Shown here in pieces: positions 14,334 through 55,764 of a stretch of DNA of 64,000 nt. Both the position numbers and the translations under genes were made by a program. The stretch is taken from positions 49,746,999 through 49,810,998 of the forward strand of contig CM060190.1 of NCBI GenBank assembly GCA_030549335.1. Direction: 5' to 3'. Each line of letters starts with the position of its first letter. Position 1 is the stretch's first letter. The stretch is from Pontederia crassipes (taxonomy: Eukaryota; Streptophyta; Magnoliopsida; Commelinales; Pontederiaceae). The notes below the pieces were generated by a model. The model saw nothing but the letters and a program-made list of their open reading frames with translations. It was not told where the DNA came from and made no database searches.

Positions 14334-15245
14334 TGCGTTTGACAATCGAAATCGTGATTCTGTCGAGTTCTACGTGAATAATTGAATTGACAAATTAGTT
14401 CGAGGTGTGTTTGCATATAATGGAATGTAATGACGAGGAACGTTGATGTGATAGGAAAAAGTAGATGTGATAGATTAATTATATTATGTGTTTGAATAAA
14501 AATAGATTTTATAAATATAAAACATATTTTTTAATTAATAAAAATAAAAATAAAAATTTAAAAGAATTTTTTATGAAAAAATATTTTTTAAATATTAAAA
14601 ATTGTAAATAAATTATAATATTAAAATTTTTATTGAAAGAATAAGTAAGAAATAATATAATATTAATATTTTATAATGTATAAGGGTAATGTGAGTGAAA
14701 AAATAAGGAAAGAAAAAAAATGAGAAACGTCGAAAAAAATAGAAAAAAAACAAAGGTGAAAGCAAGTGGTGGAGTGGGAATCAAGGTCACATGCACCTTG
14801 GTCCCACCCTCAGTTCTCGGTGCGATTCTGCCAAACGTTACAACATTTGGTTGACAAATTCGACAAAAAGGAAAGAGAAGGGTGGAAACAGGAACTAGGT
14901 TGTGGTTCTTCCGATTCACAAATAAGTCCTTATGTTTGAAAATTGAATCCTAGTTCTTTCAAAGTTCTCGATGAATAGTTGAATTGATAGCTTAGTTTTA
15001 ATGTGTTTGAATGAAGTGGAATTTAACGACAATGAATAAAGTAATCGATGTCATAGGAAAAAATAGATTTGTTGGAATAATTTTTAATGGGTGTTTGAAT
15101 CAAAATAATAATTATATATAAATAATATATTTTCAAATAATTAAATAAAAGTATAAATAAACAAATTATGGGAATTTTTTTTGTTAAAAATATACTATTT
15201 AAATATAAAATTATATTTAATTAAATTTGAATTTTTTAATGTAAT
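14334..15245. repeat. AT-rich spacer with two diverged copies of a ~260 bp block
   Basis: The block at about 14362-14620 and the block at about 14957-15230 share the same word order: an AATTGAATTGA word, GTGTTTG, GTGGAAT/ATGGAAT, GATGTGATAGGAAAAA/GATGTCATAGGAAAAA, TGTTTGAAT, then an AT-rich tail. Identity is moderate. The left edge GGTGCGTTTGAC is reminiscent of DNA-transposon ends, but no matching right end was found. No gene. Confidence 0.5.
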
Positions 15246-16017
15246 ACTATGTAATGAATAATAAAATAATTTTGAAAAATACATTGAAAATCATTAAAAT
15301 GATCGTGAGATATCAAAAAGGATTTGTGGATAGTGTGATTGCCCTCGCCCGAATGACTGATTGAAAAATATCGAAGTTTTTTTACTATTACTATGATAAA
15401 AATCATACTAATTGAAGGAATTAGTGAATTTGAAATATCAAACATTTTTTTTCTGTGAAACGGAACTTAAGGAAAAATGTAACTATAATTGCATGTTTTG
15501 TCTGTTCAAAAGTAACATTGATTGACTAATTAAATGAGTTCAAACATTAATTATTTTTTGAGAGAGACTTATTATCTTTCAATCATATGCCAACTGCATT
15601 CCATAAACCATTAATTCACACAACTCATTCCCTTCCCTATTTGTTCCTCGGCTCATTGCCACCTTGCACCTGCCATCATTTGCCTGCATGCACCTCATCA
15701 TTATTCCAAGATCTTATCAACAGCACAATTTTGATTGGTCTAAGAACAAATTATATATTGTCATGAAAAAAAGAATAAAGTATATATGTGCGCATATCCT
15801 CCAACGAGATAAGAAGATAACCTGATACAAGTCTTTGAATGGAAACAAAACAAACTTTAGCAAGTAGAATGAATTAGGAATACACGATAAGAATGAACTG
15901 AAAACTCATAAACCGTTTTACTTGTCAATGATAAAAAAACAGAAAATGGCATATACTATTACACTCGCCAATCAATTTTCTCTTTCTTCCTCCCTGGTGA
16001 GGCAAGGAACCTTATAT

Positions 16018-16042
16018 TAAATAATAATAATAATAATAAATA
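16018..16042. repeat. (TAA)n microsatellite in the gene A upstream region
   Basis: A short TAA run at the place where the other units carry much longer ones (24026-24172, 26875-26990, 55732-55762). Confidence 0.9.
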
Positions 16043-16345
16043 AATATGCTTCTAGAACAAGAATTTAAGTTATAATTAATGTATTCTTTGAAATTTGCCA
16101 ATTTCTCATGGTGATAAGGAACATTAAATTTCTAGTTGTGTTCTGGCATTTACTCACATACATTTATTGTGTATCAAATATTTGCAAAATAAATACAATA
16201 TATATATACCATTAATACACTTCCCTTTTCAGGCTTTCATGCACCACCATCTCTTGTATCAGTCCAAATGCATGCACCTCTTTCAGGGTAATTCATGCAT
16301 CTCTTTAGGGTTGATGGAAGAAATAGAGAGAAAATGAACAATAAT

Positions 16346-16353
16346 TATATATA
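16346..16353 (+). promoter_or_regulatory. Candidate TATA box of gene A
   Basis: TATATATA, followed by GTGAGAGAG, lies 120 bases before the ATG. The same motif at the same distance is found in unit C (56064-56071), and a close copy precedes the orphan and B copies. Position and conservation suggest the core promoter; the start of transcription is not visible. Confidence 0.5.
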
Positions 16354-17258
16354 GTGAGAGAGTTCTCGATGATCTCATATCATCTCTCTTTTACTCTTCA
16401 TTGAGCACATTCGACCTTCTTCTATACTGCCGCCTACCGTTTCTCCTCACACCCCCTTGGAACTCCATTGACATGGCCAGAATTAATGTCCCGTTGAACC
16501 AATACCTTGAAAACAACCTCTCTATTCATGTCGAGAAAGATATGATTGGAAAGCAATGTGAGGAAGAGTCTCCTCAAAAGTTCCCTACACCAGAACATCC
16601 AAAGGTGGCCCAACTTGAAGGAGCAATAGATCTTGACCTTGAAAATTATGAGCGCTTGCTCTTTGATGAGGAACTTTTGTTGATGGACATCGACAAGGTC
16701 TTGGAGGAGTTGGAGGCAGACATTGATCGTCAAAGAGGAATGACCACTATGACCCAAAACTCCTTAGATGAGGAAGCCAAGGTTTCTGCTGCAGAAGTAG
16801 TGCAATCTAGGCCTGCTCATCCAGAGTGTCCTCAAAGAATCCCTATTGAGGAACATCAAAGAGCGGTGCAACTTGAAGGAGCAGTCGATCTTGACCTCGA
16901 CAACTTCGAGCTCCTGCTCTTTGACGAGGAATTTTTGTCGATGGACATCGACCAGGTCTTGGAGGAGTTGAAGGCAGATATTGACCGACAAAGAACAACA
17001 TCAATTATGAGCCACAACTCCTCGGATGAGCAAGCAAAGGTTACTGCAGAAGCAGTGCAATGAGACATAAAATATGTGCTTGCTCATCCAGAGATAGACA
17101 TCGACAACAATGGACCATTGTTTGACGAGCACAAGGAGGAGGAGGAGATCGAAGTCAACGAGGAAGAAGAGGTCACCAGTGACGAATGGCTTCCCGAAGG
17201 ATGGAAGTCGATAGTTCTCACAAGGAAATCTGGGAAGAGCACAGGCCACAAGGACAAG

Positions 17259-17274
17259 GTAATTACTTTAGAAA

Positions 17275-17310
<36 letters not shown>

Positions 17311-20300
17311 TTTCTTTTGATTACAAATGTTAATGGTTGTTAAATGCCAACAAACATGTCATTTACTTGTATGTAATGTATGCATTATTTATTGATTAAT
17401 CTACAATGATATTACATGTCTGCATACTATTTTCTTATCATCTCATCAGTTGAATTCTGCATCCATTGTTAGATAAATTTCTTGCGATTCTTAGAAATGA
17501 TGATAAGTCATTTTAAGTATGAAATGTATGTCAAGAGATTTTAAAGAATAAATTATTTTAAAGAATGTATGTCAAGGGATTTGGATCATAAATTAAGTAA
17601 TTACAAATTTGAAGGAATTCTTGAAATTTCAAATGGAGTACATAAATTTTCTACTAAATTCTATTGATATATCAATACCTTTGAGAAGAATAACGAAGGA
17701 AACGTCTAACAAATTTAAAAATAGTCATTGTAGCTTTCTTCCTACCACCATTATTTTCGTATAATTTTATTTGTGAAATAATAAGGAAAAATAAGTGATA
17801 TAACTCTTGTTTTTATTAATATATAGTTCCGTAGGAGGTTACCTAGAAAGACATAAAAATAGTGTTTCATTGGTGTTTAATTGCAAAATCATTTTCTAGT
17901 GCTCTATTTAAAAAGTATTTGGACAATGAAAATATAGTTGATAGTGATGCCACCCATATTCCTCGCAAGGAAAAAAATGGAAAGTTGAGAACCACATACA
18001 AATTAAGGACGGAATTATTAATTGATGGACTAATAATGGTCTTTTCATCTTGATGGAGTAGTTGTCATAGGTTTTATAACCAGTAATACTAAATTAATTT
18101 ATAGCTGACAATAGTAAATGTGATTATTCACATTTGTTTTTGAGGTTCAATCAATTTCCTCATTAAACATTTTTAGGAAGTTTTTAGAACTGAACTTATG
18201 GTAAGTCTTTCATAGAAAATGTACAACGAGGACAAGTTTGATACTTGATGAGGTAAATTTATTTTTATTCTACATGAAATATATGGATTTTCTTATATTA
18301 TTTATTTTATAAATTCAAACGAGTAAATGTCATATTGGTAAAGAACACTATTTTTAATGTTAAAATTCTGATAGGCTTTGTTAAAAAAGTAAAAGAATAG
18401 AAACCAATAGTGGTCCAATTTGGAGAATGGTTCTAAATGTTTTTTAGTAAATTTGAAAACCTCTAGGGAATACTAATGTGAAAATAACAAAAAAATAAGT
18501 AACATATTGGAGCATATATTCGACCAATTTCTTCTATAGTGTGTTTGATTTGTTTTATTTTATTTCCATTCCTTGGAATCATTAAGGGAATATTAGATTA
18601 CCACATTTGGTTGGATATAATTTAGTAATGTAATTAGAAATGTGACATTCTTCCATTCCTCTTTCGGCCATTGTCTTTCTTATATTCCGACCTCTTCGAG
18701 TTGTTGCCCCCACTGGGCCTTTGCCGAGAAAGAGAGAAGTGTCGGCATCCGGAAGAAGAAGCAAACGTGCTGGTGTATGCACGTATGCTCCTGCTCGTCC
18801 TTCACAACTAGAGAAGTCAAAGGTCCTAGCATGTGCTCCTGGTTATCCTTCCCAAAGAGAGACAGAGGGAGGAAGAGAGAGAAGCATCATGGTTTTGACG
18901 TGTGCTGTTGCTGATTTAAAAAGAGAGAGACAAGTATTAGTATTCCTGCTAATTTGAGAAGAGAGAGAAAGAAGTAGCAATTTTGACGTGTGCTGATTCT
19001 TTGTGTCAATGAGAGAAGCATCACATTTTTTGCTTGTTTTTCACCACTATGCTTTATTTCATTTGATAGTTGCCGGCGCCATTTATGAAACAACGAAGTC
19101 TCCATGGTTAGCTCAACGACCTTAATGTGACCTCCCACCAACAAGAGCATTTGGTTCATATCTTGTCCCAATAGTTCCGAACTCCATAATCAAAAGCTCA
19201 TCGTTCGAATTCCTTTTTTTTCTTTTGGTGAGGTGGCTTTAAGTTGTTAAATTACTATCCATTTTACCTAGGAATGTGATTCCTAGAAATAACATTCCTT
19301 GGAATATTAAAATTTCAAGTAATGTTATATATCTTAAACCAAACACGCCTATAGTGATATGACGATGTGTCCTCTATAATATTAAGAATTTAATTTGAAA
19401 AATAAAAATATGTGTTTCTTCTAGAGAAATTAATAACATTTTACAAAAAAAAATAATGACCATTGAGCTTGGATTCTCATCCGTATGCAATTGAATCTTA
19501 TAATCCAAATATACAATTGTAGAAAACAAAATACAAAAATAAATGAAATGAAACATCGAAGGATCTATATATGCATTCACAGCCGAAGATATCTAACAAC
19601 ACATTACTTTCGTAATAAGAAAATTGGTACATTAAATAATGTTCAATATGTACATTGAATAATGTACAATATATCATTTGTATAATCTAAAATTGGTATA
19701 GTTGTATTTAAGCTCAATACACCAAACACCACTATCGACGTGATAATGTAGATCTCCTATGTACTCACAGCCACAATGCTCCGATCATGCTCCAAAAAGT
19801 ATCCATTGATTATGTGTCAATCCTAGGAATAAATGGATGATGTCCTCAATCACGAATCTAAGTAGGGCACATAACCTATTTGGAGTGAACTAGTTGGAAC
19901 ATGTCCTATCATGCCTTACAAGTCAAACAAAGATACTAGATATTTATCATTAATAAATGATGATGTTTTAAGCATTTAAAACGATGAATATTTCTTCAGT
20001 CCTACGAACAAAAAGACTACAGAAATGACATATACTTTGAGAAGATTAAAATAGGTTCATAAAATTCTTTCAACCTCCGTGAAATTGGTAAGATTGAATT
20101 CTCAATTTAACTTCGCATAACATCATTATAGGCTTTAATTTATCATATTTATTGTAATTTCTATCAGCGACATCTTAATCATATCTATAAATTTCTATAT
20201 GCTAGATAAGTCTTATCTTTAAACAAGCTCTTACATTGCAAGTTATTAGAAAGGACTCCAAGTGAAATATTATACAACCTAAACGTGCAAAATTTGTATG

Positions 20301-21210
20301 CTCTAGCTTTGGGAACTTTGCTCTCAAATGTATATTGGTACTTCCTATGATATACTTGAAAAAAAGGCTTTTTATTGTTTGCATAGACAAAAGTTCTATG
20401 TTAATTTTATAAAGCATTGTGGTTGTTTAGTCACCGTTGAGGTCATGAAAGAAAAGTAGAGGTTTTTTATAAGTAATGGAATCACGATCTTTTTTATTGA
20501 AATGTCATTATCTTGGGTTAGTCATAATTTTGACACAAATTTATATTTTGAAACTTAATTAGCTCATTAATCATAATAGCAAAACTATTTTTTGCAATTA
20601 TATTTTAAGTGTGAAGAGGTGGACTTACGGTGGTTAGGCTAATTCTTGTAGAATATTTCTTGATGTTGAATTTAGTCTAAAGAAATTCTTAATTATCTTA
20701 AAGTGACATTAGTTTGATTATGAAGTTTTTTTAATATAAATAACTATTAACTTCATTAGCATGCATTGACAAATAACTTGAGCGGCAAGAATGAACGAAA
20801 AAATATATATCCATAGATATCAACAAGAAAATCTTAAAAAGGAATTTATTGAGATGTCGTGTCGCTTACTCTAAAATTATTAATTATTAAAACAAACAAT
20901 TTAATGCAATGCCATAATTCATTTAATATTTATAATGAATTGAGTTATTTCACATGTAAACCACTTTATCTTCTTTTATTATCTTATTTTAGGAATATCA
21001 TGCACAATGAAACAATAGTTTTTGGATGTTTGATTTCACTCTTTGTGTAATATATTAATAGATTAATTAGTATATTTATATGTCTTTAAACCAATGATCT
21101 TGCAAACACTAGAAAATGTTGCATAGTAATTATTTTAGATTTTATTCAGTAATCTTTGGCTTATTTATCATAACATTCTACTAATGTATTTCTCTTTTGT
21201 GTTACTATAG
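17259..21210 (+). other. Intron 1 of gene A
   Basis: Lies exactly between Lys262 (ACAAG|GTAATT) and Tyr263 (TATAG|TATTTC), inside the MBD. It contains a (TA)n run at 17279-17307, the MITE-like element at 18539-19349 and otherwise AT-rich sequence. The open frame at 17862-18053 is not kept open in unit C and looks like chance. Confidence 0.85.
18539..19349. mobile_element. MITE-like DNA transposon remnant, copy in unit A
   Basis: Terminal inverted repeats of about 13 bases: GTGTGTTTGATTT at the left and the complement of GGCGTGTTTGGTTT at the right. TATAGT lies beside both ends. Subterminal GGAATG/CATTCC words recur in both orientations. It contains GAGA-rich tracts and no transposase. Copies at the same intron position in units B and C show insertion before the duplications. 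Superfamily unresolved (hAT- or PIF-like). Confidence 0.6.
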
Positions 21211-22179
21211 TATTTCTTAGATCCTATATTTAACAAGAGATTTCGATCAAGAAGGGAAGTTTATGATTTCCAGCGTACGTTGGTGGAGTTGGAATTAAAC
21301 TCTTGTTGTCTTAATGGGAAGGTATGCATATATTTTCTATTTTTGGCTTTTGCTTCTTTTTTCTCTCATTTATTGTTTTCTTCTCTTACTAAAGGAATAT
21401 GTTTTTACTTATTGTTCATGCTTTTGTATTCATAGATTAAACTAACATGTTCATTCTTCCAGGAAGAGAAAAGAAAGTTGTTGAAAATGATAAGAAGATT
21501 GCAAAAGCAAGAAAGACACGAAGCTAGACGTAACTTAAATGCCAATGTTGTAAGTTCCTTCAAAACTTCTCATTATTTTTCTTTTCATGATGTATTCTTT
21601 AGTTATTAATGCATTATAAAAATTCACATTGTCTCTACTTATTGTCCTTAGAGTCTATAATGGAAATATTCCATATCATTTTACTACAATTTGTTATCAT
21701 GAAAAATATGATGTATGAATAGACTTTCAATTAAGTTATCCTAAATTTTTTAATTTGTACTTTTTCTTGCCTAGATACCTGAGAATCCTCAAACTTCTCT
21801 AATATTTAAAATTATCGATAGAAAGAAAACTAATTTTAAACATCACAAACAATTACTGTATGGTATTGTTTATATATTTTCACTAAGAAAATGTTTCATA
21901 AATGTATACTTCTACATATATATATAAAACATTTGCTCATGAGTTGTTTTGTCATCACTAATTAATTTATGCTAATTTGTAAAAACTTATATTTGAAAAT
22001 ATTTGGATATGCATAAACCATCTCAATTCTTCAAATGAAATATCAAATTTTTTTTGTGTCAATCAATTATCTCTATTTTTATTGTTCATTTATGAACTTT
22101 TAGTATGTTGTTAAGTTATTCCAAATTTGCTTTTAAAAAAACTACACAATGACATTGTCTGTATCTTCAGGGAGAATGA

Positions 22180-22809
22180 TTGAAGGAGATGATCCAAAAG
22201 ATGCAAGATGATAATGAAGATGAAAACTAAGTTATGGGGCAACTAATTTCAAAGTCGCAAACATTTGTAAAAAGATGAAGCAATAAAGGAACAAAAGTCA
22301 TCTAAATTGTGATGCAAAAAAAAAACGTAACTTGGAATTTCTTTTGAAACATTATAATTGATGTTTTAGCTACCTCAGAACATATGGTTGGCCTATAGAT
22401 TATATATATATATATATTTGAAGATGGCTTCATAGACTTTCTTAATGTTTTTATTCATTATTGTGAACACAGTTGACAAGCCATCTTGTCCTAGTTTCAT
22501 ATGAAGCTGCAAAATAACATGGTGGAGAAGAAAGCAATTATTACACATGAATAATATATAAAGTTATTATTATATTAATGTGCTTGTAATTTTCTTTCAA
22601 AAAGGAAAAGAAATTTTCTAATTTCATGAGTGGATTAAATCATTTTGTTCCACAATGAAAAACTGACAATCAAAATAGTATGCACACTGTTCCAAAAATA
22701 TTTAATTAGCAAAAGGGTTGTCTTTTTAAGCTTTACACATAAGAATATTAAATGTATTAATTATTTACTTGCATTATTACTAAATGATAGATGTAATAAA
22801 GATGATGAA

Positions 22810-22859
<50 letters not shown>

Positions 22860-23189
22860 CCTGCTCATAAAAAATGATGTGCCCAATGAAAGTAAAAAAA
22901 AAAGTTTAGCAAGAACTTTTAAAATAAAAAGCATGTGAGATGCTTTCTATGAATTCATATCATTTATGATATAAATTCAAAAATATTGAGATTATGATAG
23001 ACAAAATACATTCAAAATGTAAAGTTGTGCACTCCATTGATGACATTATTCTTGTGATTGAGATCTAATAAGAGTTAGTCTCCCAATATAGGACAAGGAC
23101 TTGTAAAGGATATCTATGCACAAATGGTGAATAATTTAATGTATGAAATGCCTTGTAAGAGACCTGATTTGAATTATTCAATAAATTTT
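22180..23189 (+). other. 3' flank of gene A with (TTA)n
   Basis: Carries the possible polyadenylation signal AATAAA (22282-22287), a (TA)n run near 22400 and a (TTA)n microsatellite at about 22810-22858. The poly-Ile open frame here comes from that microsatellite. This flank is repeated at 12060, 24597 and 62570. Confidence 0.7.
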
Positions 23190-24596
<1,407 letters not shown>

Positions 24597-24960
24597 AATG
24601 ATAGATATAATAAAGATGTTATTATTATTATTATTATCCTGCTCATAAAAAATGATGTGCCCGATGAAAGTAAAAAAAAAGTCTAGCAAGAACTTTTAAA
24701 ATAAAAAGCATTTGAGATGCTTTCTATGAATTCATATCATTTATGATATAAATTCAAAAATATTGAGATTATGATAGACAAAATACATTCAAAATGTAAA
24801 GTTGTGCACTCCATTGATGACATTATTCTTGTGATTTAGATCTAATAAGAGTTAGTGTCCCAATACAGGACAATGACTTGTAAAGGATATCTATGCACAA
24901 ATGGTGAATAATTTAATGTATGAATTGCTTTGTAAGAGACCTGATTTGAATTATTCAATA
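24597..24960 (+). repeat. Orphan 3' flank copy
   Basis: Aligns with about 22785-23190 of unit A, including a short (TTA)n site and CCTGCTCATAAAAAATGATG. Joined directly to the orphan promoter, it implies removal of one whole gene between them by deletion or unequal exchange. Confidence 0.8.
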
Positions 24961-25247
24961 AATTTTATTTGTAGATATTAGAATAATTCTGAAAAATACA
25001 TTGAGAAGCATTAAAATGATCGTTAGATACAAAAAATGAGTTGCAGATAGTGTGATTGTCCTCACCCAAATGACTGATTGAAACATAACAAACTTTTTTT
25101 ACTATTACTGTAATAAAAATCATGTTAATCGAAGGAATTAATGAATTAACAAATATTTTTTTGAAACAAAAAAGTAAAGGAACCTTAAGGAAAAATGTAA
25201 CTATTGTTGCCTATTTGGTGTGTTCAAAAGTAGCATTAATTGGCTAA

Positions 25248-26296
25248 CACTACTAGAAAAACGCGGATTACCGATGGTCCGAACCATCGGTAATCAGCCT
25301 GAAAATCGTCAGTAACGTAATTATCGACGGTTTTTCAGTCGGAAACGATCTGTCGGAAAAACGCTCGTCGCAAACGGATTTGCGACGATTGAAAATAATT
25401 CATCGAAAATATCGACGGTTCTGGCCGTCGGAACAGTCCCCGACGGTTCGACCCGTCGAAATTTTCTGACGGTTGCAACCGCCGGAAAAGTCCTCGGCGG
25501 TTCGAACCATCGCTATTTCCGACGGTTGCGACCGCCGGAAACCTGGCGGTCGGATCCGGCCGACAGCAGAGAGAGATGCCGGCGCGGAGCGGGAGAGAGA
25601 GATACACCGGCGCGGGAGAGGGTCACCGATGCGGGAGAGGGTCGCCGGCGTCCGGCGTGGGAGGGTCGCCGGCGTCCGGCGCGCGGGAGAGGCCGATCCG
25701 ATGCTCGCGGCCGGGAGAGGGAGAGAGGAGAGGAGGGAGAGAGAGAGGAGTGGAGGGAGGAGGGAGAGAGAAGAGGGAGGAGGGAAAATATATAAAGGAA
25801 AAAAGTGGATAGAAAGCGGGAAAAGGGAAAAAAAAGTGGGATAATGAAATTTTAATTACCGACGATTTCGACCGTCGAAAACGTAAATAATAAATATTTT
25901 TATTTTATTTAGTTATATATAATATTTATTTTTTTATTTTATCGACGGTTTGAACCGTCGGTAATCTTTACCGACGGTCAAAACCGTCGGTAATTACGAC
26001 GGTTTGGACCGTCGCTAGTTATATTAATAAAATACTCTTATATATGATATTATTGTATATTTACCGACGGTTACGACCTTCGGAAATTGCGGCGGATTTT
26101 GCGACGGATGGATATCCGTCGGAAATATCGACGTTCCTAATCGTCGAAAAATTAAATAATAATATAAATTATTTCCGACGGTCATAACCGTCGAAAAATC
26201 CGTCGGAAATGGAACCGTCGAAAAATCCGTCGCAAATTGCGACGGATTTAGAATGTAAAAAATTATCCGTCGAAAAATCATGATTTTCTTGTAGTG
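25248..26296. mobile_element. Non-autonomous CACTA (En/Spm) element 2
   Basis: Begins CACTACTAGAAAAA and ends with the complement of CACTACAAGAAAATC. The 3-bp duplication TAA lies on both sides (25245-25247 and 26297-26299), and the empty site GGCTAACTAATGAG is present in the orphan flank (about 23460) and unit D (about 63420). Dozens of short CGACGGTT/AACCGTCG words in both orientations fill both ends and would pair strongly. The centre (about 25560-25790) is GA-rich and GC-rich; its Arg/Gly-rich open frames are by-products. No transposase is encoded. 1,049 bases. Confidence 0.93.
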
Positions 26297-26874
26297 TAAC
26301 TAATGAGTTCAAACATTAATTAATTTTTTGAGAGATTATTATCTTTCAATCATTTGCCAACTGCATCCCATAAACCATTAATTCATACAACTCACTCTCT
26401 CCCCTATTTGTTCCTAGGTTCATTGCCACCTTGCACCTGCCATCATTTGCATGCCAGCACCTCATCATTATTCCAAGATATTATCAACAGCGTATTTTTA
26501 TTATTATTCCAATATTGGTCTAAGAACAAATTATATATTGTCGTCGAAAAAAAAGATTAAAGTATATATGTGTGCATATCCTCCAACAAGATACGAAGAA
26601 AAACAATAACTGATGCAAGTATTTGATTATTTCATTGGAAAGGAAACAAACTTTAGCGAGCAGAATGAATTAGGAATACACAATAAGAATGAACATAGAT
26701 TTTTTTTTTCAATTTCCAGCATGATATGGTAAAATTAAGAAAATAGCATAAACTAAAAATTCGTAAACCTTTTTACTTGTCAATGATAAAAATAGAAAAT
26801 GGCATATTATTACACTCGCTAATCGATTTTCTCTTTCTTCCTCCCTAGTGAGGCAAGGAACCTCATATTAACTA

Positions 26875-26898
26875 ATAATAATAATAATAATAATAAAA

Positions 26899-26987
<89 letters not shown>

Positions 26988-26990
26988 ATA
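26875..26990. repeat. (TAA)n/(TAAA)n microsatellite upstream of gene B
   Basis: TAA triplets pass into about a dozen TAAA units. It occupies the same place as the (TAA)n sites of the other units. Confidence 0.95.
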
Positions 26991-27401
26991 TGCTTCTAGA
27001 ACAAGAATTTAAGTTATGTTAATGTATTATTTGAAATTTGCCAATTTCTCATGGTGATAAGGATCATTAAATTTCTAGTTGTGTTCTGACATTTACTCAC
27101 ATACATTTATTGTATATCAAATATTTGCAAAATAAATTCAATATATATACCATTAATGCCCTTCCCTTTTCAGGCTCTCATGCACCACCATGTCTTGTAT
27201 CAGTCTGAATGCATGCACCTCGTTTAGGGTAATTCATGCATCTCTTCAGGAACGATAATTATATATAGAGAGAGTTCTCGATCTCATACCATCTCTTCTT
27301 TACTCTTTAGCAAACACATTGGCCCTTCTTCTCTACTGCCGCCTACCGATTGCTCCTCACACACCCACACACCCACCCCCTCCCCCCGGAACTCCATTGA
27401 C

Positions 27402-27593
27402 ATGGCCGGAATTAATGTCCCGTTGAACCAGTAGCTTAAAAATAGCCTCTCTATTCATGTCGAGAAAGATATGATTGGAAAGCAACATGAGGAAGATGTC
27501 CTAAAAAAATTCCCTATACGAGAACATCCAAATAGGAGCAATAGATCTTGACCTTGAAAATTATGAGTGCTTGCTCTTTGTCGAGGAACTTAA
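27402..27593 (+). pseudogene. MBD gene B, truncated sense start of exon 1
   Basis: Keeps the ATG and about 190 bases similar to the start of exon 1 in units A and C, as far as GAGGAACTT in the first acidic module. Codon 11 is TAG instead of TAC (Tyr), and small length changes follow. At about 27594 the sequence switches abruptly to the reverse complement of the first bases of intron 1, so this copy cannot make the protein. It shares private bases (CCTAAAAAA, CGAGAAC) with the inverted copy next to it, so the two arose from one another. Confidence 0.88.
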
Positions 27594-27617
27594 TATATGA
27601 TCAGCTGAAGTAATTAC

Positions 27618-28397
27618 CTTGTCCTTGGGGCCTGTGCTCTTCCCAGATTTCCTTGTGAGAACTATCGACTTCCATCATTCGGGAAGCCATTCTTCACTGA
27701 TGGCCTCTTCTTCCTTGTTGACCTCCTACTCCTTGTGCTCCTCTAACAATGGTCCATTGTTGTCGATGTCATCTATCTCTAGATGAGGAAGCACATATTT
27801 GACATCGGGTTGCACTGCTTCTGCAATAACCTTTGCTTGCTCATCCAAGGAGTTGTGACTCGTAGTGGACGTTGTTCTTTGTCGGTTAACGTCTGCCGCC
27901 AACTCCTCCAAGACCTGGTCGATGTCAATCGAAAAAAAATTCCTTGTCAAAGAGTAGGAGCTCGAAGTTGTCGAGGTCAAGATCAATTGCTCCTTCAAGT
28001 TCCACCGCTCTTTGATGTTCCACAATAGGGATTTTTTGAGGACACTCTGGATGAGCAGGCCTAGATTGCACTACTTTTGAAGCAGAAACCATGGCTTCCT
28101 CATCTAAGGAGTTTTGGCTCACAGTGGCCGTTGTTCTTTGACGGTCAATGTCTGCCTCCAACTCCTCCAAGACCTTGTCGATGTCCATCGACACAAGTTC
28201 CTCATCAAAGAACAAGCGCTCATAATTTTCAAGGTCAAGATCTATTGCTCCTTCAAGTTGGGCCACCTTTGGTTGTTCTCGTATAGGGAATTTTTTAGGC
28301 CACTCTTCCTCACATTGCTTTCCAGTCATATCTTTCTCGACATGAATAGAGAGGCTGTTTTCAAGGTACTGTTCAATGGGACATTAATTTCGGCCAT
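27618..28397 (-). pseudogene. MBD gene B, inverted copy of exon 1
   Basis: Complete exon 1 on the minus strand, from ATG (28397) to the GTAATT donor just below 27618, 780 bases against 786 in A and C. Both acidic modules, the linker and the first half of the MBD (WLPE.WKS) are recognisable. Frameshifts near the start and after the second LLFD.E motif, and a TGA in place of the Gly codon in WLPEGW, make it a pseudogene. No exon 2 follows on this strand; within about 20 bases after the donor it meets the sense fragment head to head. Its own upstream region (28398-28823) is included, with a TATAAA on the minus strand at 28587-28582. Confidence 0.88.
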
Positions 28398-28823
28398 GTC
28401 AATGGAGTTCCAAGGGGTTGTGAGGAGCAAACGTAGGCGGCAGTACAGAAGAAGAGCGAATGTGTTTTCTGAAGAGTAAATAAGAGATGGTATGAGATCG
28501 AGGATAAAAGAGATAAAAGATAAGCATTTAGAAAAAAAGATAAACCTGATGGAGCAACGAGAGCCTCTCCAATGCACCCGCTTTATAGATATATAGATTA
28601 TTGTTCCTTTTCTCTCTATTTCTTCCATCAACCTTGAAGAGATGCATGAATTACCCTGAAAGAGGTGCATGCATTCCGACTCATACAAGAGATGGTGGTG
28701 CACGAGAGCCTGAAAAGGGAAGTGTATTAATGGTATATATATATATATTTTATTTATTTCACAAATATTTGATATACAATAAATGTATGTGAGTAAATGC
28801 CAGAACACAACTAGAAATTTAAT

Positions 28824-29376
28824 GCTAGATTTGTTGATGCTTTATTACGAATAAAAAGGTTCATAGTCTATAATGTAGTTGCGAAATTGCCTCGCGAATT
28901 TAACGATCAATTTTGCCTCCCAATGTGTTATGGAATTACAATTTTATTTTGTTTTTGCTGTTGACTAAGAAATACCAGTGTGAAAATAACAAAAATATAA
29001 ATAACATATTGGAGCATATAATCGACCAATTTCTTCTATGGTGTGTTTGGTTGTTTTATTTCCATTCCTTGGAATCATTAAGGGAATATTAGATTACCAC
29101 ACTTGGTTGGATATCATTTAGTAATGTAATTAGACATGTGACATTCTTCCATTCCCCCTTCCACTTTGTCTTTTTTACATTTCGACCTCTTCTAGTTGTT
29201 GCCCCCACTGGACCTTTGCCGAGAAAGAGAGAACGTGATAGTGTATGCTCCTGTTCGTCCTTCACAGCTAGAGAAGCGAAAGGTCCTAGTATGTGCTCCT
29301 AGTTGTCCTTCCCAAAGAGAGATAGAGGAGGAAGAGAGAGAAGCAACATGGTTTTGACGTGTGCTCTTGCTGATTT

Positions 29377-29423
<47 letters not shown>

Positions 29424-31197
29424 AGTACTCCTACTAGTTTGAGAAGAGAGAGAAAGAAGTAGCAACTTTGGCTTGCGCTGATTCTTTGTGTGAAGGAGAG
29501 AGGCATCAAATGTCTTAGCATTTTTTGCTTGTCTTTCACCACTATCGTCTTGCTTTATTTCATTTGATAGTTGTCGGCGCCATTTATGAAACAACAAAGT
29601 CTCTATGGTCAGCTCAACAACCTTAATGCGACCTCCCACCAGTAAGAGGATTTGGTTAATCCCTTGTCCCAATAGTTCCGAACTCCATAATCAAAAGTGT
29701 GAGATGGCTTTAAGTTCTTAAATTGAAACAAACATTGCAATTGATTTTACCTAGGAATGTGATTCCTAGAAATTACATTCCTTGGAATATTTAAATTTGA
29801 AGTAATGATATATATCTTAAACCAAACACGCCCATAGTTATATGGCGATGTGTCCTCTATATTATTAAGAAGTTAATTTGAAAAATAAAAATGTATGTTT
29901 CTTCTAGAGAAATTAATAACATTTTATGAAAAAATAATGACCATTAAGCTTGGATTCTCATCCGGATGCCATTAAATCTTATAATCCAAATATACAATTC
30001 TGAAATACAAAAAAAAATAAAAAAAAAATAAATGAAATGAAACATCGAAGGATCTATATATGCATTCACAGTTGAAGATATCTAACAACACAATAATTTC
30101 CTAATAAAAAAATCGGTATATTAAATAATGTTCAATATGTACATTGAATAATGTTCAATATATCATTTGTATAATCTAAAATTGGTATAGTTGTGTTTAT
30201 GCTCAATACACCTAACAACACTATCGACCTGATAATATAAATCTCCTATGTACTCATAGCCACAATGCTCTAATCATGCTCCAAAAAGTATCCATTGATT
30301 ATGTGTCAATCCTAGGAATAAATGGATGATGTCCTCAATCACAAACCTAAGTAGGGCACATAATCTATTTGAGTTAGATGTCAATCTTGATTTGGAGTGA
30401 GCTAGTTGGAACATGTCCTATCATGCCTTACAAGTCAAAGAAAGATACTAGATATTTATCATTAAAAATGATGATGTTTTAAGCATTTAAAACGATGAAT
30501 ATTTCTTCAGTCCTACGAATAAAAATACTATGGAAAGGACATATACTTTGAAAAGATTAAAATAGGTTCATAAAATTCTTTCAACCTCCATGAAATTGGT
30601 AAGATTGAATTCTCAATTTAACTTCCCATAACATCATTATAGGCTTTAATTTATCATATTTATTGTAATTTCTATTAGCGACATCTTAACCATATCTCTA
30701 AATTTCTATATGTTAGATAAGTCTTATCCTTAAACAAGTTCTTACACCGCAAGTTATTAGAAAGGACTCCAAGTGAAATATTATACAACCTAGACGTGCG
30801 AAATTTGTATGCTCTAGCTTTGGGAACTTTTCTCTAAAATGTATATAAGTAATGGAATCACGATCTTTTTATAAGTAATGGAATCACGATCTTTTTATTG
30901 AAATGTCATTATCTTGGGTTGGTCATAATTTTGACACAAATTTATATTCTGAAAACTTAATTAGCTCATTAATCATAATAGCAAAACTATTTTTTGTAAT
31001 TATATTTTAAGTGTGAAGAGGTGGACTTGCGGTGGTTAAGCTAATTCTTGTAGTAAATTTCTTGAATTTAGTCTAAAGGAAATTCTTAATTAACTTAAAG
31101 TGACATTAGTTTGATTATGAAATTATTTTTAATATAAATAATTATTAACTTCATTAGCAAGCATTGACAAATAACTCGAGCGACAAGAATGAACGAA

Positions 31198-33432: not shown

Positions 33433-33610
33433 AAAATCAACAAGAAAATCTTAAAGTGGAATTTCTTGAGATGTGATGTTGCTTATCTAAAATTATTATT
33501 AAAACATGAAATTTTATGCAATGTTATAATTCATATAATATTCACATGTAAACTACTATTATCTTCTTTCATTTATCTTATTTTAGGAATAGCATGCACA
33601 ATGAAACAAT

Positions 33611-36191
33611 TGTAACATTTTTTTTAAAAAAGGTGGAATTTGTTTAAAATTTAAGGGCAATTTTGACATTTTGCAGGAACTGACAGCAGAAAGAAAAAAA
33701 TAATAAAGTGACCGTGTGGAAAGAGAAAAAAAAGGATCGTAACCGCGAGCCATTCTCCAGCTGCCACCCCTTTCGACGCTCCGTTCTCCTCCATCCGGCC
33801 ATCGTTTTTCATGTGTGAGGTGTCTTTGGAAAGAGGACGACGGGACGAACATTTTGCAAAGGGTTAGGAGATTATTGGTCCACTGTGCACGACACAACGA
33901 GCTTAGAACACGAGGAGATGAAAATTTTGCCGACGATGATTCTGGCGACTCTTTCGGCTCCGCACTGATCCTTCTCCTAATAAGTTGTACATCATTCTTA
34001 GGTCGATTAGAATTATTTTGAGGGGTTTTAATCATGTCTTTGATCCAAATTACGTAGGAGACTGAAATTGGGACTTTCCGGTGAACTTTTTCGGCGACCT
34101 ATCCGGCGAACCGATGGGGAACTCTGGCCAAACTCATCTCGATGTTCTGGTAGGTGCACACATGAGGAAAAAAGAAATCAGATTGCTGTCCGTATAATAA
34201 TTAGTCGCTAATTTTTCTTTTAGGTTCGTAGGTTTCGGATTCCGATCGTTCTCCGGCAACCTTTCCGGCGACTCGTTCTCGTATCGCGGTTGGTAAGTGA
34301 ATAAGAATGTGCATGTGATTGGATTTCATCTATGTGGACAAATTTAAAGTAACTTTATTTTATTATTGATGAAGAAGGCGTTCGGTGGCTTTTCGATGAT
34401 TTGACGGGTGCGGCGGTGATTTTGAGAGCGGTGGCTATAGTGGTTGTGGTATGAATGCTCGGATAACTAAAAGTGAATTTTTATAATGTAGTGAAAGTTC
34501 TAATTGGAAGTTGTCTTAAAAATTGATTTGAACTTCGCTTATAGAGTTTGTTAATCAGAGGCGACGGTTCGATTGTTTAGATTCAATTAGGCGGTTACTA
34601 GATGATGATGCCTTCTTTTTCTTCTCGATAAGTATTTTAGCAAATCCATAATATGACTTGGCTTATGATAAGTATATTGAGTTATTGCGAAGAGTGAATT
34701 ATCAATTAATTTTTTATAATATTAATTTACCAAGTAATGAATGTGATAGGTTGTGTTACTTTTAATTGTATTTGGATGAGGGGATAATTTGGGCACTCGA
34801 CGAATTCAAGGTGAGGGAACTTATCTCAATTGATATGAACCACTTAAATTCCTTTGAGTAATGATATTGTCCCATCCGATGTGGGACTAATTTTCGTGAT
34901 AGTTTTTTCCCATGTCAAAATCATATTTATTCGTATGCTTCTTATGTGTGCTCTCATATGACTTGTAATGTTTTATTATGAACTGTGGAAGTCTTTAATT
35001 GATAGATGTTTCTCTTGTCATCTGAAATGAAGGATTTCCTTTTGAAATGAAATGTTCCTTTAGTATAATGATTTCAAGTTTTATATTTTCATTTTGAAAT
35101 TGCATTCATGCATTACATGTAAAATCCACCTAAGGCGGAGTGTTTTCATCTCGGAGGATTGGCCATCTTCGGGTAGAGCGATTTGGGGCTCGGTATGCTC
35201 TGTGTCAATGGGATACGAAGTGCAGGTTCAACACCCTATGTCAATATAGTGATACGAAAGGTAGAATTAGAACAACCATCCTGTGTCAATGGGATACAAG
35301 GATGGAAAGAAGAGATAAGAAGCCCTGTGTCAATGGGATACGAGGGACAGAGTTGGAACAACCATCCTGTGTTAATGGGATACGAGGGATGAGATTGATT
35401 CATCCATTGAGGAGATTGGATATCCATATTTGATGATGTTTCTCCAAGTTTTATGATGTTATGTTATTATGATACATGTGCATCCATAGCATTCATTTTG
35501 GTATGATCATTATTTTAATGAATTTTCTTGAAGAAATGAGAAGGGTTTGGAATAATTTCTGAAAATGAAAAGGTTAGTTTTTTCTTTGCTGTTTTAATAT
35601 TTGAGATAGTCATTTTACTCAATGAGTCTCTTTATGCTCACTCCTCTTATTTAATTCTTTTCAAGTAATGAATGAAAACTTGCATAACATCAAATAAGGA
35701 TTGTAAAAGAGCTAGTAAATGAGCATGTGTCAGAGGCATGATTATTGAGTTTCATTATATGAATTTATTACTTGATGAATGTTTTGAAAGATTTTGGAAA
35801 TGTTGAATAATTATGTGGAGCGAAGGACGCTCACGTTAGATAGTTTATGAGCATCTGGCTCGTGATCTTGATTTGAGGGTGAGCTTGAGACTCACTATTT
35901 TGGGCATGTGTCCCATCATTTTATCTATACGATGAATTGCCAGTAATGTCCTTATAATTGCCTGTGATGATTAAAGTTTTGAAGTTAATTGTTGTAATGA
36001 GATATATATATGAATTATTGTATATGACGAATAGAAGAATTTACGCATACATCATGTCAAAATTTTTAAAAATCTCCAGAGTTAGTTTACTTTTTGAAAT
36101 GTTGGTTTCATTGAAGATTTGAATTTGAATTTAAATGATTGATTTTCTAGTTTCACCCCTTTGGCGCCAAAATTAGTAGAAGGGTGTCACA
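33611..36191 (+). repeat. 5' LTR of the gypsy fossil (2,581 bp)
   Basis: Contains several copies of a CTGTGTCAATGGGATAC word spaced by 30-60 bases (about 35200-35390), also found in the 3' LTR (about 48285-48500). The open frame at 35140-35433 is a product of that repeat. Confidence 0.92.
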
Positions 36192-38294
36192 AGTTACCGT
36201 ATCAGAGATTAGAGATTAGATCCAAATCACGGAGTGTGGGTAGAAATGGGTACTTGTATGTTATGCTTGTGTATGTATTATTACATTTGAAATCTTTATG
36301 AAAAAAATTGCATAGTGAAATTTATGTCATGTGCATATATATATGAACTAGAACATAATGGACAATATTATGCTGAATTATTTTTATATTATGTTATAAG
36401 ATTATTGTTAGTGAGTAAACTTAATGGGATATTGATATGAATGAAATTATATGTTAAACGTTTAAAGGAACCATCGTGCCAGGAGGTATGATGGGTAGAT
36501 ATATTGTTGTAATGAGTTGTTAAGTAATGATTTTAGCGATTAGATTTTATGGGATTCACTAAGGAAGTTTGTGGTATTAAATGCAGCATGACACCCACGA
36601 CCCGACAGAAAGGTCATGTTGGAGTGGACGGTTCAGGAGGATTTGGGACCGGAGTTGGCTCCCATGTGGGAGAAACTCGCGATGAGATCCGAGTCGAGCC
36701 ACAAGCACAGCTTAGGGGATCTATGCCACTTGCCCTTGATGTTAAGGCTTTGCCTAGTCACATTGACTTACTTGTGCACCAAATTAAGTTGAATGGTGTG
36801 GTTGAATTTGAAGGAGAGCAAGATCCTGCTAAGGCTAAGGCATGGTTGAAACAATTGGAACGTGTGTTTAAGATGATGGGTTTAAGTGATGATAAGAAGA
36901 TGTCATGCATTGAGTTTTTACCAACTAAGGGTGCTTTGTCCTGGTGGGAGGACAAATATGAAGAATTGGACATGAGATGAGTTCAAGAAGGAATTCTACA
37001 GTTTTTACATTCCAATTTCACATAGTGCTAAGAAGGTCAAAGACTTTATAAATTTGAGATAGGAGGAGGATTCAGTGGCAACTTATACTATCAAATTTGA
37101 ACAGTTGTGTAAGTTTTGTTCAGGATTAGTGTCAACGGATGAGGAGAAGAAGATCATTTACATGGAGAAGCTAGCACATAGGATCAAAACTCAAATTGCT
37201 TGCATTGAATGTAGGACATATGTGGAAGCAAACAATTTGGCACTTAAGGCTGAGGAACAAATGGAGGAAAGCAAAATGTGGGCAAATCGCAACAAAAAGA
37301 GACAAGAAATCGGTCAAGGTAACTCCAATCTAAAGAGGGAAAGAGTGGATGCATACTTTCAGCCACTATCATTTAGAGGGATACCTAGCATGACTGGAGG
37401 ACGAGGTAATCAGAGGGCTGATTTAAGGACTCATGATCGGGGAAATCAAATGAGAGATCATAGTATGGTGTGGCACCTGTGGAAAGCGTGACTCGAGCAA
37501 ATGCTGGTCTAACACGAGCAGAGTACCTACATGCTTTAATTGTGGTGAGAAAGGGTATAAGAAATTTGAATGTACCAAATTAGCAGCTGCTACATAGGTT
37601 TCAGATGCTCGTGGTGGATCACGGATTGCTCCACAGCAGGTTGGTACTACAGTGAGGATCCCATCTACTAGTTCCCGAAATAAGGGAAAAGTTATTACCG
37701 ACCGCTAGTCCTGAGGTGGTTACAGGTTTGATTCTCATCAATAAGAAGTATATGACTATTTTATTTGACCCCGGTGCATGATATTCATTTGTTTCATATG
37801 CATGCGTATCCTTGTTGGATATGGAGCCTTTTCCCTTATCCGTTGATATGTTTGTTGTCCTACCCTCAGACACGCTTTGATTGCTAGACAAGTATACAAG
37901 GAATGTGTGCTTATGATATGTGATAAAGAATTTCTGACTAATCTTATTGTTATAGACATACAGGGATTTGATGTCATTTTAGGCATGGATTGGCTTTCCA
38001 CTTATCGGGCAATGGTGGATTGTTTTGCTAAAGAAGTGAAATTGACATTGCCTTGTAGTGAGGAGGTAATTTTCAGGGGGTGATAAGAGAATGCTACCTA
38101 CTTATGTGATATCCACTATGGTAGTCAGAAAAATACTACTTGAAGGGTGTGATGCTTACTTAGCTCATATTCATGATTTGAATCGTGAGCCACCTAAGCT
38201 TGAAGAGTTGCTTATTGTTCAGGAGTTTTCTGGTATTTTTCTCGAGGCATTGCTTACCCTTTTAGCCTCTAGTTTAGCATTTATAATTCAGTTT

Positions 38295-44340: not shown

Positions 44341-46700
44341 TTTATGAGCCACTACCCTTCTCAATCGATAAAATAAGAAAACATCTAAATAAAGATGAAA
44401 GATGAAAAGATGTAAAGATGAATGATGAATGACTTGGGACATAAAGACAAAGATGATAAAAATGAAGAAGGCACCTATGAGGATGCATTATGAATTTCCA
44501 CTTGTCACATCATATGATGTCATGAATAAAGACGACAAAATAAAGTAAGACAAGATTATGATATGCAATAGCATCATGATAAGTATGATGATAAGATATG
44601 ATATGCAATAGCATAATGATAAGATATGATATGCAACAGCATAATGGTAAGTATGATGATAAATTATGATATGCATGATTTAAAGATTATGATGTTACAT
44701 GTTATCTAGCTTGTCATGATGATGTGCTCACATGCCATATAGTATGCACAAGTAGCTCATAGCATTCATATGGCTTATGTTCCATGATGATGAAATGCAT
44801 ATGCCATGACATATAGAAATCATGTTATAAGATCATAGCATGCATGGACTTCAACATACTCTAACAGGAGAAATCCTCTGCACCTCATGGATTCGTGCAG
44901 GTATGAAGGAGGCTTAAGTTCGGCGGCGAGAGCCTCGTGACGATGACATTGCACATGGGTCTGTCGGGCTACGACCCAAGTCTTTTACTTATATTATGTT
45001 ATCATGACGATGAACTCTGTTAAGGGTGTTTTATGTATGGCTTATGGGCCTTATTGAGCCATGTACTCCATTTGAAATCATTTATGTATGATGAACCCTC
45101 TATTGGGTATACGTTAGAGCCTATTAAGCCCATGGACCAGTTTATGTATCTTGGGATTTTATATGTTGAGAAGTCTTCCGCTATTTATGAAAAATGATGT
45201 TTTATGTTTATATTTATGAATATATTTTCGCTGCAAAAGTTTTATGAAATTAGGACAGGGTCAAAGTCAAAGTAACATCGCCTAGGGTTCGGCAAAAGTT
45301 TTAAATTGGGGCCGAATTTCGGAGGAGTTACATAGATTATTTGTATATAAAGCATATGACTTGAGAGAGGAAGTGTACAAGAAAGTCACAATGTAGCATA
45401 TTAAGTGATACAAGAAAGTTACAATGTAGCATATTCATTACATCCAGGTTGCACCAAGATGTACAAAAACCTGCGGCAAAATTACTTTTGGCTAGGAATG
45501 AAGGAGAATGTGGTTGAGTTTGTATCTCACTGTTTGGTATGTCAGCAAGTTATGGCTGAGCATCAAGCTCCTTGTGGTAAGATGAACCCATTACCTATAC
45601 CTGAGTGAAAATGAGAAAAGATTAATATGGATTTTGTGACAAATTTGTCATAATGTTGTGTGGGTGATAGTAGATAGATTGACAAAATCAGCGCATTTCT
45701 TACCAATTAAGATTACTTAGTCGTTGGAATAATTGACACAATTGTTCATTGATGAGATTATTCGATTACATGGTATACCAAAAGTCATTATTTCTAATAG
45801 AGACACTAGATTCACATACAAATTTTGGAAGAAGTTAAGTGAGCCCTTAGGGACGAATTTGTATTTTAGTACGGCCTTTCACCCACAGACTGATGGTCAG
45901 GCTGAGCGGACGATACAAACATTGGAGGATATGTTGAGAGCTAGTGCGATGAATTATGGTGGATGTTGGGATGATCATTTAGCGTTGGCCGAGTTTGCAT
46001 ATAATCATGGTTATCAATCCTCCATTTGTATGGCGCCATTTGAGGCTTTGTATGGTCAGAGATGTCGTACCCCCATATGTTGGGATAAAGAGGGTGAAAG
46101 ACAGTTGACGGATGTTGACTTAGTTCAGGAAACCGTGGACAAAATTGTTGTTATCCGAAAAAGAATAAAGGAAGCTTAGGATCGTCAGAAAGCACTAGCG
46201 GATAAGTCACGACATGAGAGACAATATGCAGTCGGAGATAAAGTTTTCTTGAAGATTTCTCCTTGAAAAGTTGTTCTTCGATTTGGAAAGAAAGGAAAGC
46301 TGAGTCCCAGATTTATCGAACTCTACGAGGTGTTTGAGAGAGTAGGAACCGTGGCTAATCGCCTTGCCTTGCCACCACCATTGGCGAGGATTCATAATGT
46401 GTTTCACATATCAATGTTTCGAAAGTTTTTGCTTAGAGAAGATCAACAGATTGAGGCATAACCAGTGGAGATAAATGAAAATATGACATATCAGGAGGAG
46501 CCTGCTCAGATATTAGCACATGAGGTGCGACAGTTACGCAGACGTGAGATACCTATGGTTAGAGTACTAAGGAAGAATTATACGGAGAGAAAGGCTACAT
46601 AAGAGTTGGAGGAGGATATGTTGAAAAGCTATCCACATTTTTCTGATCTTCAGGTTAGTTTGAATTTCGATGATAAAATTTTTGTCATGGGTATTGTAAT

Positions 46701-49331: not shown

Positions 49332-49530
49332 ACAATAGTTTTTGAATGTTTAAATTCACTCTTTGTGTAATATATTAACAGCTTAATTATTCTATTTATA
49401 TGTCTTTAAACCAATGATCTTGCAAACACTACAAAATGTTGCATAGTAATTATTTTAGATTTTATTCAATTATCTTTGGCTTATTTATCCTATCATCCTA
49501 CTAATGTATTTCTCCTTAGCGTTACTACAA

Positions 49531-49641
49531 TATTTCTTAGATCTTATATTTAACAAGAGATTTCGGTCAAGAAGGGAAATTTATTATTTTCAACGTATGT
49601 TGGTGGAGTTGGAATTAAACTCTTGTTGCCTTAACGGGAAG
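49531..49641 (+). pseudogene. MBD gene B, exon 2 remnant
   Basis: 111 bases aligning with exon 2 of units A and C: Tyr-Phe-Leu-Asp-Leu, then FNKRFRSRREIYYF, the C-terminal half of the MBD. The reading frame is open, but the acceptor TATAG|TATTTC of the other units is here TACAA|TATTTC, so the AG is lost. It is cut off from exon 1 by about 20 kb of insertions, and no exon 3 follows. It is decaying under no visible constraint. Confidence 0.88.
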
Positions 49642-49779
49642 GTATGCATATATTTTCCATTTTTGGCTTTTTCCTTCTTTTTCTCTAGTTTACTATTTTT
49701 TTCTTCCATTACTAAAGGAATATGTTTTTACTTTACTATTCTTTCTTTTGCATTCTTAGGTTAAACTAGCATGCTCATT

Positions 49780-50370: not shown

Positions 50371-50981
50371 GAATAATAAAATAATAAGTAATGAATAATA
50401 AAATATTCTGAAAAATACATTGAAAAGCGTTAAAATGATCGTTAGATATCAAAAAGGAGTCGTGGATAGTGTGATTCCCTCACCCGAATGACTGATTGAA
50501 AAATATCAAACTTTTTTTACTATTATTATGTTAAAAATCATACTAATCGGACGAATTAGTGAATTTGAAATATCAAACATTTTTTTCTATGAATCAGAAC
50601 TTTCAGGAAAAATGTAACTATAATTGCATGTTTCGTGTGTTCAAAAGTAACATTGATTGACTAATTAAATGAGTTCAAACATTAATTAATTTTTTGAGAG
50701 ACACTTATTATCTTTCAATCATTTGCCAACTGCATTCCATAAACCATTAATTCATACAACTCATTTTCTTCCCTATTTGTTCCTCGGCTCATTGCCACCT
50801 TGCACCTGTCATCATTTGCGTGCATGCACCTCATAATTATTCCAAGATCTTATCAACAGCACAATTTTGATTGGTCTAAGAACAAATTATATATTGTCAT
50901 GAAAAAAGAATAAAGTATATATGTGCGCATATCCTCCAACGAGATAAGAAGAAAACCTGATACAAGTCTTTGAATGGAAAC

Positions 50982-51310
50982 TGTTGCGAATAAAACACTA
51001 ACGATCGATGAATAATCAAAATAACGAAAGAAAGAGAAGATGAACACAGAGATTTAACGTGATAAAACTCTCTTGATCAATGTGAACAAGAGAGAAACAT
51101 CCACGGGCAAAGGAGGCCGCCGCCAGAAATTTCCACTATGAGCCAAAAGAGAGTGTACATCATATAAAATCCTAACCCTCATATATAAAGGTCCATACCC
51201 TAACGGTCCAAGTCCTCCGCTTCCGCCACAGATTCTCATTTTTCCTCCTTTTTCATTTTTTTTCTTTCATAATTTTGGGTACAAGGTACATAATTCAAGG
51301 CACACCAACA
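50982..51310 (-). repeat. 3' LTR (left copy) of the Tnt1-like element
   Basis: 329 bases. On the plus strand it starts TGTTGCGAAT and ends CACACCAACA. It keeps a stretch with CATATATAAAGG that the other LTR lacks. Confidence 0.93.
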
Positions 51311-55658: not shown

Positions 55659-55729
55659 AAAACGAAACAAACTTTAGCAAGTAGAATGAATTAGGAATAC
55701 ACGATAAGAATGAACTGAACCTTATATTA

Positions 55730-55764
<35 letters not shown>

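Follow-up and report, generated by a model that had tools for sequence, protein, structure and literature searches.

A tandem array of MBD-type genes on contig C8 of this plant genome contains a foldback, in which a truncated promoter and first exon are followed directly by an inverted promoter and first exon. The two arms of the foldback come from different paralogues, and the hairpin that its RNA could form has been imperfect from birth. We think it probable that the locus is a rearranged MBD pseudogene and that the foldback is a by-product of the rearrangement, which appears able to make hairpin RNA and carries no sign of selected silencing. Silencing by the foldback is a hypothesis without firm support.

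The array and its genes

By the window, we mean the whole stretch of DNA that was analyzed, which is 64 kb long (C8:49746999-49810998, from a genome of 1.13 Gb in 43 contigs) and sits inside the array. To map the array, we placed the modules of gene A on 139 kb of C8 and on 50 kb of contig C7. We use window coordinates throughout, with numbers beyond 64000 for positions on C8 past the end of the window. The units on C8 are A (15225-23100), the foldback unit B (from 26980 on), C (50374-62568), a second foldback unit B2 (63119-67892), D (86635-94350), and the unrearranged unit E (from 94351 on, with its exon 1 at 103545). A distant relative, F, lies at 123363. C7 carries, in reversed orientation, the genes H1 and H2, a truncated promoter (H3), and another relative (F7), and we found no foldback within the 50 kb examined there, which hold the matching array. 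Because the ten C7-C8 matches of at least 200 bases that lie outside the array units are 84.7-95.1% identical, C7 is apparently the homoeologue. More distant relatives with a similar end of exon 1, encoding half of an MBD domain, are present at C7:52.46-52.70 Mb, at C8:22.6-22.7 Mb, and on C11 and C12.

Exon 1 codes for a region of acidic repeats as well as the first half of the MBD domain, and it ends at a splice donor. The second half of the domain is encoded by exon 2, which we located by tblastn of related ORFs about 3.6-7 kb downstream of exon 1 in A, C, D, H1, and H2. The initial annotation of this DNA had taken the family to be readers of methylated DNA, and the domain scores agree: predicted exon 1 joined to exon 2 scores 30.6 bits in D and 31.1 bits in H1 against the Pfam MBD model (PF01429; cut-off 21), while the 3' part of exon 1 of C, taken alone, scores 16.4 bits against the same cut-off. 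A segment of about 240 bp within exon 1 is also duplicated in tandem (for example, 16565-16806 and 16823-17061, which are 79% alike), and this duplication encodes the acidic LFDEE...LEELEADIDRQR unit twice.

We judged the integrity of the genes on exons 1 and 2 only. Among the six genes that are not foldbacks, exon 1 is open in D, which lies outside the window, and in H1, and it is broken in A, C, H2, and E. A and C are the genes that the initial annotation named as targets of the hairpin. Both are probably pseudogenes, because exon 1 of each contains an in-frame stop codon: exon 1 of A (16473-17258, plus strand, with exon 2 at 21211) has a TGA at 17061-17063, and exon 1 of C (56191-56976, plus strand, with exon 2 at 61089) has a TAA at 56512-56514 as well as a GC splice donor. 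Upstream of gene C is a retroelement-like insertion (50982-55660), which by eye has Copia-like ORFs and whose end repeats are about 84% alike.

We also computed dN/dS for exon 1 (NG86, 15 pairs from 6 sequences, with stop codons omitted). The ratios were 0.62-1.12 among A, C, and D; 0.42-0.51 between these three and H1 or H2; 0.49 between H1 and H2; and 0.62-0.89 between the inverted exon of B2 and the other five sequences. By this measure, constraint on exon 1 is looser in the C8 copies, which is not decisive.

Anatomy of the foldback

The foldback extends from 26980 to 28824, and its inverted promoter and exon 1 occupy 27592-28824. The initial annotation had placed the junctions at about 27594 and 28823, and we find them close by, between 27591 and 27592 and between 28824 and 28825. 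The sense arm region (26980-27591, plus strand) holds three parts of the B pseudogene, namely the promoter, the leader, and exon 1 up to its nucleotide 190, with TATATATA at 27260-27267, the ATG at 27402, and an in-frame TAG at 27432-27434. Judging by eye, a TATA-like box lies ahead of the sense arm. The portion of this region that pairs with the inverted arm is 527 nt long (27065-27591, plus strand). It is followed by a spacer of 603 nt (27592-28194, minus strand), which is made up of the 3' part of the inverted exon 1 with its splice donor, plus some 25 nt of intron 1. The inverted arm itself (28195-28824, minus strand) is 630 nt long and contains the 5' part of exon 1 (ATG at 28397-28395), the leader, and the promoter of a different paralogue. 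Past the right junction, sense sequence of intron 1 appears again (28825-30846, plus strand), matching 58181-60209 of C and 18464-20335 of A.

In terms of gene A, the sense sequence up to 27591 matches 16018-16676, and the inverted insert corresponds to 17283 back to 16122. The insert therefore holds promoter and leader sequence reaching about 350 nt ahead of the ATG, the whole of exon 1, the donor, and 25 nt of the intron. The inverted exon 1 had been described as complete, and in extent it is, but its reading frame is broken in B; in B2 the frame is fully open. The remainder of the sense exon 1 and the first 1.2 kb or so of intron 1 are missing from B. At the left junction, which by eye is either blunt or carries a single filler base, the inverted piece ends at the start of an AT run in intron 1. 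At the right junction, again by eye, the two sources overlap by three bases (ATG).

The arms align in two blocks, namely 27065-27248 with 28635-28824 (90.0% identical) and 27277-27591 with 28195-28502 (81.8% identical, with gaps). In a multiple alignment, the arms of B are identical at 456 of 506 ungapped columns (90%), and their longest perfect run is 38 nt; the arms of B2 are identical at 491 of 550 ungapped columns, with a longest perfect run of 50 nt. Between the TATA region and the leader of the inverted copy is an 86-bp dispersed repeat (28503-28588), which is also found in the second foldback and which we take to be MITE-like. This repeat has at least 38 matches in the genome outside both foldbacks (38 of the 40 that were scored, from 91 candidates). 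Across 189 kb (139 kb from C8 plus 50 kb from C7), the foldback and its duplicate are the only inverted BLAST matches of at least 300 nt within 5 kb.

Exon 2 of the B pseudogene, which encodes the second half of the MBD domain, is at 49531-49650 (plus strand), about 21 kb past the right junction and behind retroelement-like insertions. It has lost its acceptor AG (the sequence is CAA). In the intron region of B, two direct repeats of about 2.6 kb (33608-36192 and 46698-49332, 84% alike) surround retroelement-like ORFs, and they look like long terminal repeats.

A second copy of the foldback

The second foldback lies just past the end of the window, from C8:49811000 to about 49812875. It is 94% identical to the first over all 1844 bases of the query, and it has the same two junctions. 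The two loci are 37 kb apart, and each has private changes. In the 2 kb of right flank, 61 of 1986 positions have been substituted (3.1%). At B there is also a 1,049-bp element with CACTA...TAGTG ends (25248-26296) and a 3-bp target duplication (TAA). We take it, from its end sequence, to be of the CACTA type. The element is not at B2, where the empty site is at 63400-63440. Furthermore, a local tandem duplication (24187-24588 and 24591-27357) has given B an extra promoter upstream of the foldback, which is a second, truncated copy of the same promoter (24187-24588, plus strand); B2 is without it. Because the two loci differ in flank substitutions, in the CACTA-type insertion, and in the promoter duplication, they have been separate for some time.

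Origin of the arms

We built trees from the promoter and exon 1 region that is shared by 10 sequences, and also from the exon only and from the promoter only. In the combined tree, the sense arms and unit E group together with UFBoot support of 99-100, and the inverted arms of both copies make up a clade of their own (100). The exon-only tree gives the same groups (98 and 99), and the promoter-only tree is weaker (91 for the sense group and 80 for the inverted pair). The AU test rejects a single clade of all four arms (p = 0.00024) as well as a pairing of both arms of one copy, Bs with Bi (p = 1.25e-05). It rejects neither a clade of E with the four arms (p = 0.097) nor a grouping of the inverted arms with A, C, and D (p = 0.28). 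A TAG at codon 11 is common to both sense arms and E, and the inverted arms are without it. Also, at 31 of 506 arm columns, the arms differ from each other and have the same state in both copies of the foldback. Because these columns agree within each arm, divergence of at least 6% between the arms is older than the duplication that produced B and B2. Since the arms have separate ancestry and their differences are common to both copies, the hairpin was mismatched at birth. The initial annotation had implied that both arms came from one gene, which these results contradict.

Given the p value of 0.097 for E with the four arms, the donor of the inverted arm could have been closely related, as a sister, to the E lineage. 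Since the inverted exon 1 of B2 is fully open, one arm derives from a working-looking gene. The junctions suggest how the foldback might have formed. The starting event would have been a break within an E-lineage pseudogene, which would have been repaired by reverse copying of about 1.2 kb from the promoter and exon 1 of a sister gene, perhaps by template switching or by end joining. The remainder of exon 1 would have been lost in this repair, along with about 1.2 kb at the start of intron 1. Later, the rearranged unit was duplicated along with its surroundings, leaving two foldbacks in the array. Even if it is silent, the locus illustrates the birth of an imperfect hairpin locus from two paralogues that had already diverged, and its subsequent copying with the array. 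It follows that the arms of such loci need not begin identical.

Hairpin potential and matches to relatives

RNA from the foldback was expected to fold into a long hairpin, and the computed energies bear this out. The minimum free energy of the B RNA (1806 nt) is -957.9 kcal/mol, as compared to -452.1 +/- 10.4 for 8 dinucleotide shuffles, and that of the B2 RNA (1837 nt) is -1030.3, as compared to -468.0 +/- 8.9 (8 shuffles), so both copies are at about twice the mean of their shuffles. A control stretch of A of the same length as B gave -481.8, as compared to -422.2 +/- 9.3 for its shuffles. In the predicted fold of B, 463 of the 527 bases of the sense arm pair with the inverted arm and none pair elsewhere.

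Both arms have perfect 21-nt matches to every one of the six other genes. For the inverted arm of B, which has 610 21-mers, the numbers with a perfect match are 130 in A, 57 in C, 92 in D, 99 in E, 82 in H1, and 75 in H2. For the sense arm, with 507 21-mers, they are 48 in A, 36 in C, 38 in D, 127 in E, 29 in H1, and 79 in H2. Just 55 of the 507 sense-arm 21-mers are unchanged in the inverted arm. So the hairpin would indeed match A and C, as the initial annotation had it, but as targets both of these genes are compromised by the stop codons in exon 1 and, in C, by the GC donor.

The perfect runs within the arms (38 nt in B and 50 nt in B2) make the foldbacks a credible source of siRNAs. If RNA polymerase were to read across from the retained sense promoter, the transcript would fold into an imperfect hairpin of about 500 bp, and Dicer-like enzymes could cut this hairpin into 21-24-nt RNAs that match the array. 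Any small RNAs made in this way could target exon 1 and the promoters of the array. We would give the production of siRNAs by the foldbacks slightly less than an even chance, and we doubt that they silence members of the array in trans to a measurable extent.

Signs of use

If we compare B with B2, substitutions are found at 15 of 626 positions in the inverted arm, 20 of 601 in the spacer, and 22 of 519 in the sense arm, along with the 61 of 1986 in the right flank. These rates are similar, and none of five Fisher comparisons was significant (the lowest p was 0.093). We also found no compensatory double changes in the 41 variable arm columns: 28 of these vary in the sense arms only, 12 in the inverted arms only, and the single column that varies in both has lost its pair in B. 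The absence of compensation is weak evidence, because with so few changes a double hit by chance would not be expected.

To look for traces of past methylation, we counted C-to-T changes in a loose and in a strict form. With loose polarisation, C>T or G>A accounted for 40 of 85 changes in A, C, and D. The sense group (Bs, B2s, and E) had 31 of 64, the inverted pair had 21 of 52, and the C7 genes had 24 of 74. The strict count covered eight segments in three classes and is uncorrected for GC content, in which the segments differ. For A, C, and D, the strict numbers of C>T and T>C changes were 6 and 6 for the stem, 18 and 2 for the 3' part of exon 1, and 98 and 88 outside; for C7, they were 3 and 12, 8 and 4, and 84 and 105, respectively. 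The ratio is higher for A, C, and D in all three classes (odds ratios of 4.0, 4.5, and 1.4), and none of these differences is significant (Fisher p = 0.13, 0.17, and 0.12). Two segments that overlap others, the whole of D1 and the 5' part of exon 1 as polarised with the inverted arms, were set aside from this count; together they have 53 C>T to 26 T>C changes in A, C, and D and 31 to 21 in C7. There is no stem-specific excess of C-to-T changes in A, C, and D (strict count, stem against outside, p = 1.0). The promoters of A and C are without any CpG, and methylation could be the cause. We take the C-to-T counts as neither support for silencing nor evidence against it. Overall, we see no sign of selection for silencing.

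Alternative explanations

The foldback might instead be a working natural hairpin, with small RNAs that would silence the genes of the MBD array (and possibly those on C7) via RNA-directed DNA methylation or cleavage of mRNA. Its strong folding in silico, the perfect 21-mers to A, C, D, E, H1, and H2, its presence in two copies, and C-to-T counts that lean this way (in the strict form, without significance) are consistent with such a role, as are published parallels such as VIM4-VIM2 in Cvi-0 (PMC13213937) and GmIRCHS (PMC13051633). On the other hand, the arms change at a rate like that of the flanks and show no compensation, and the stem in A, C, and D has as many T>C changes (6) as C>T changes (6). 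Furthermore, A and C are already broken, and so is H2 on C7, even though no foldback was found beside it. Nor were the arms identical at birth, while the VIM4-VIM2 genes are far more similar, at 99.86% (PMC13213937). On balance, we consider a working silencer unlikely. It seems less likely still that the two foldbacks are the array's own duplicated silencer, which would restrain the array and possibly the C7 genes too, with the build from two paralogues letting its small RNAs reach more of the family than those of a perfect repeat. If that were true, methyl-DNA readers would have been targeted by self-made hairpins more than once, with VIM4-VIM2 as the other instance.

Other readings of the locus concern how it arose. 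In a simple inverted duplication, the arms would be copies of one gene, identical at birth and diverged since; the geometry alone fits this, as does the 90% identity of the arms in ungapped columns. We reject this reading, which is very improbable given both AU tests and a TAG that is common to E and the sense arms only. Tandem arrays are hard to assemble, so we also considered that the foldback could be a chimeric or inverted joint in the contig. But the same two junctions occur at two loci separated by 37 kb, each of which has private changes and between which substitutions amount to about 3%, so we reject an assembly artefact as extraordinarily improbable; the foldback of promoter and exon 1, with its inverted arms and junctions, is real, as had been claimed. 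Finally, the foldback might be a young MIRNA-type gene of the kind described by the inverted duplication model, in which the target gene is first copied in inverted form (PMC3237417). A long stem, a loop of 603 nt, arms that change evenly, and the absence of any Rfam match at the gathering score in the 64-kb window all make this highly improbable.

Relation to known inverted repeats

Even as a by-product of rearrangement in a pseudogene, which is the reading that we prefer, the foldback is a structural member of the same kind as PAI, GmIRCHS, and VIM4-VIM2. VIM proteins are readers of methylated DNA. The PAI1-PAI4 inverted repeat of Arabidopsis has gene-length arms, and its small RNAs have been demonstrated. 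The initial annotation pointed to PAI and to chalcone synthase as plant precedents for silencing by inverted duplication; these do exist, and VIM4-VIM2 in Cvi-0 is another (PMC13213937).

VIM4-VIM2 is the nearest functional parallel. In Arabidopsis thaliana Cvi-0, siRNAs from this inverted repeat are directed at VIM genes, which belong to the DNA methylation pathway, and both the siRNAs and the silencing in trans have been demonstrated; the repeat consists of two whole genes, head to head and 99.86% identical, around an unpaired center of 50 bp (PMC13213937). Like the MBD foldback, it is a natural inverted repeat in a duplicated family, with a stem of first-exon sequence from a methylation-pathway gene and a hairpin that matches relatives. 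The MBD foldback, in contrast, is built from truncated parts of pseudogenes, with arms that are about 90% identical and a spacer of 603 nt, and it concerns MBD rather than VIM. The nearest anatomical parallel is GmIRCHS of the soybean I allele, a 1,087-bp repeat with a 78-bp spacer. The repeat follows the 5' portion of a DnaJ gene, its dsRNA has been detected, and its seed-coat phenotype is known (PMC13051633). Both are inverted repeats of pseudogene fragments within a duplicated gene cluster, but the MBD foldback has a promoter from its own family and two copies of the locus. Unlike VIM4-VIM2 and GmIRCHS, it is known from sequence alone.

Two other systems are similar in part. PAI1-PAI4, which is also treated in PMC13213937, consists of inverted gene copies that are methylated and make small RNAs. 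FOLT1/FOLT2 in Arabidopsis Shahdara involves rearranged, partly truncated copies of a paralogue that are linked to small RNAs that silence a relative, and both trans silencing and hybrid incompatibility have been demonstrated (PMC5257005, citing an earlier study). Compared to either, the MBD foldback is known by its anatomy only. Among the titles and abstract openings that we searched, which cover the literature in part, we found no account of this foldback.

If small RNAs are made from the foldbacks, then a reader of methylation would be controlled via the small-RNA pathway itself, and the C7 array would be a natural control. We also note a further inverted stretch of intron in unit E, at window coordinates 105100-107158 (on C8, past the window), and therefore the array has been locally inverted more than once.
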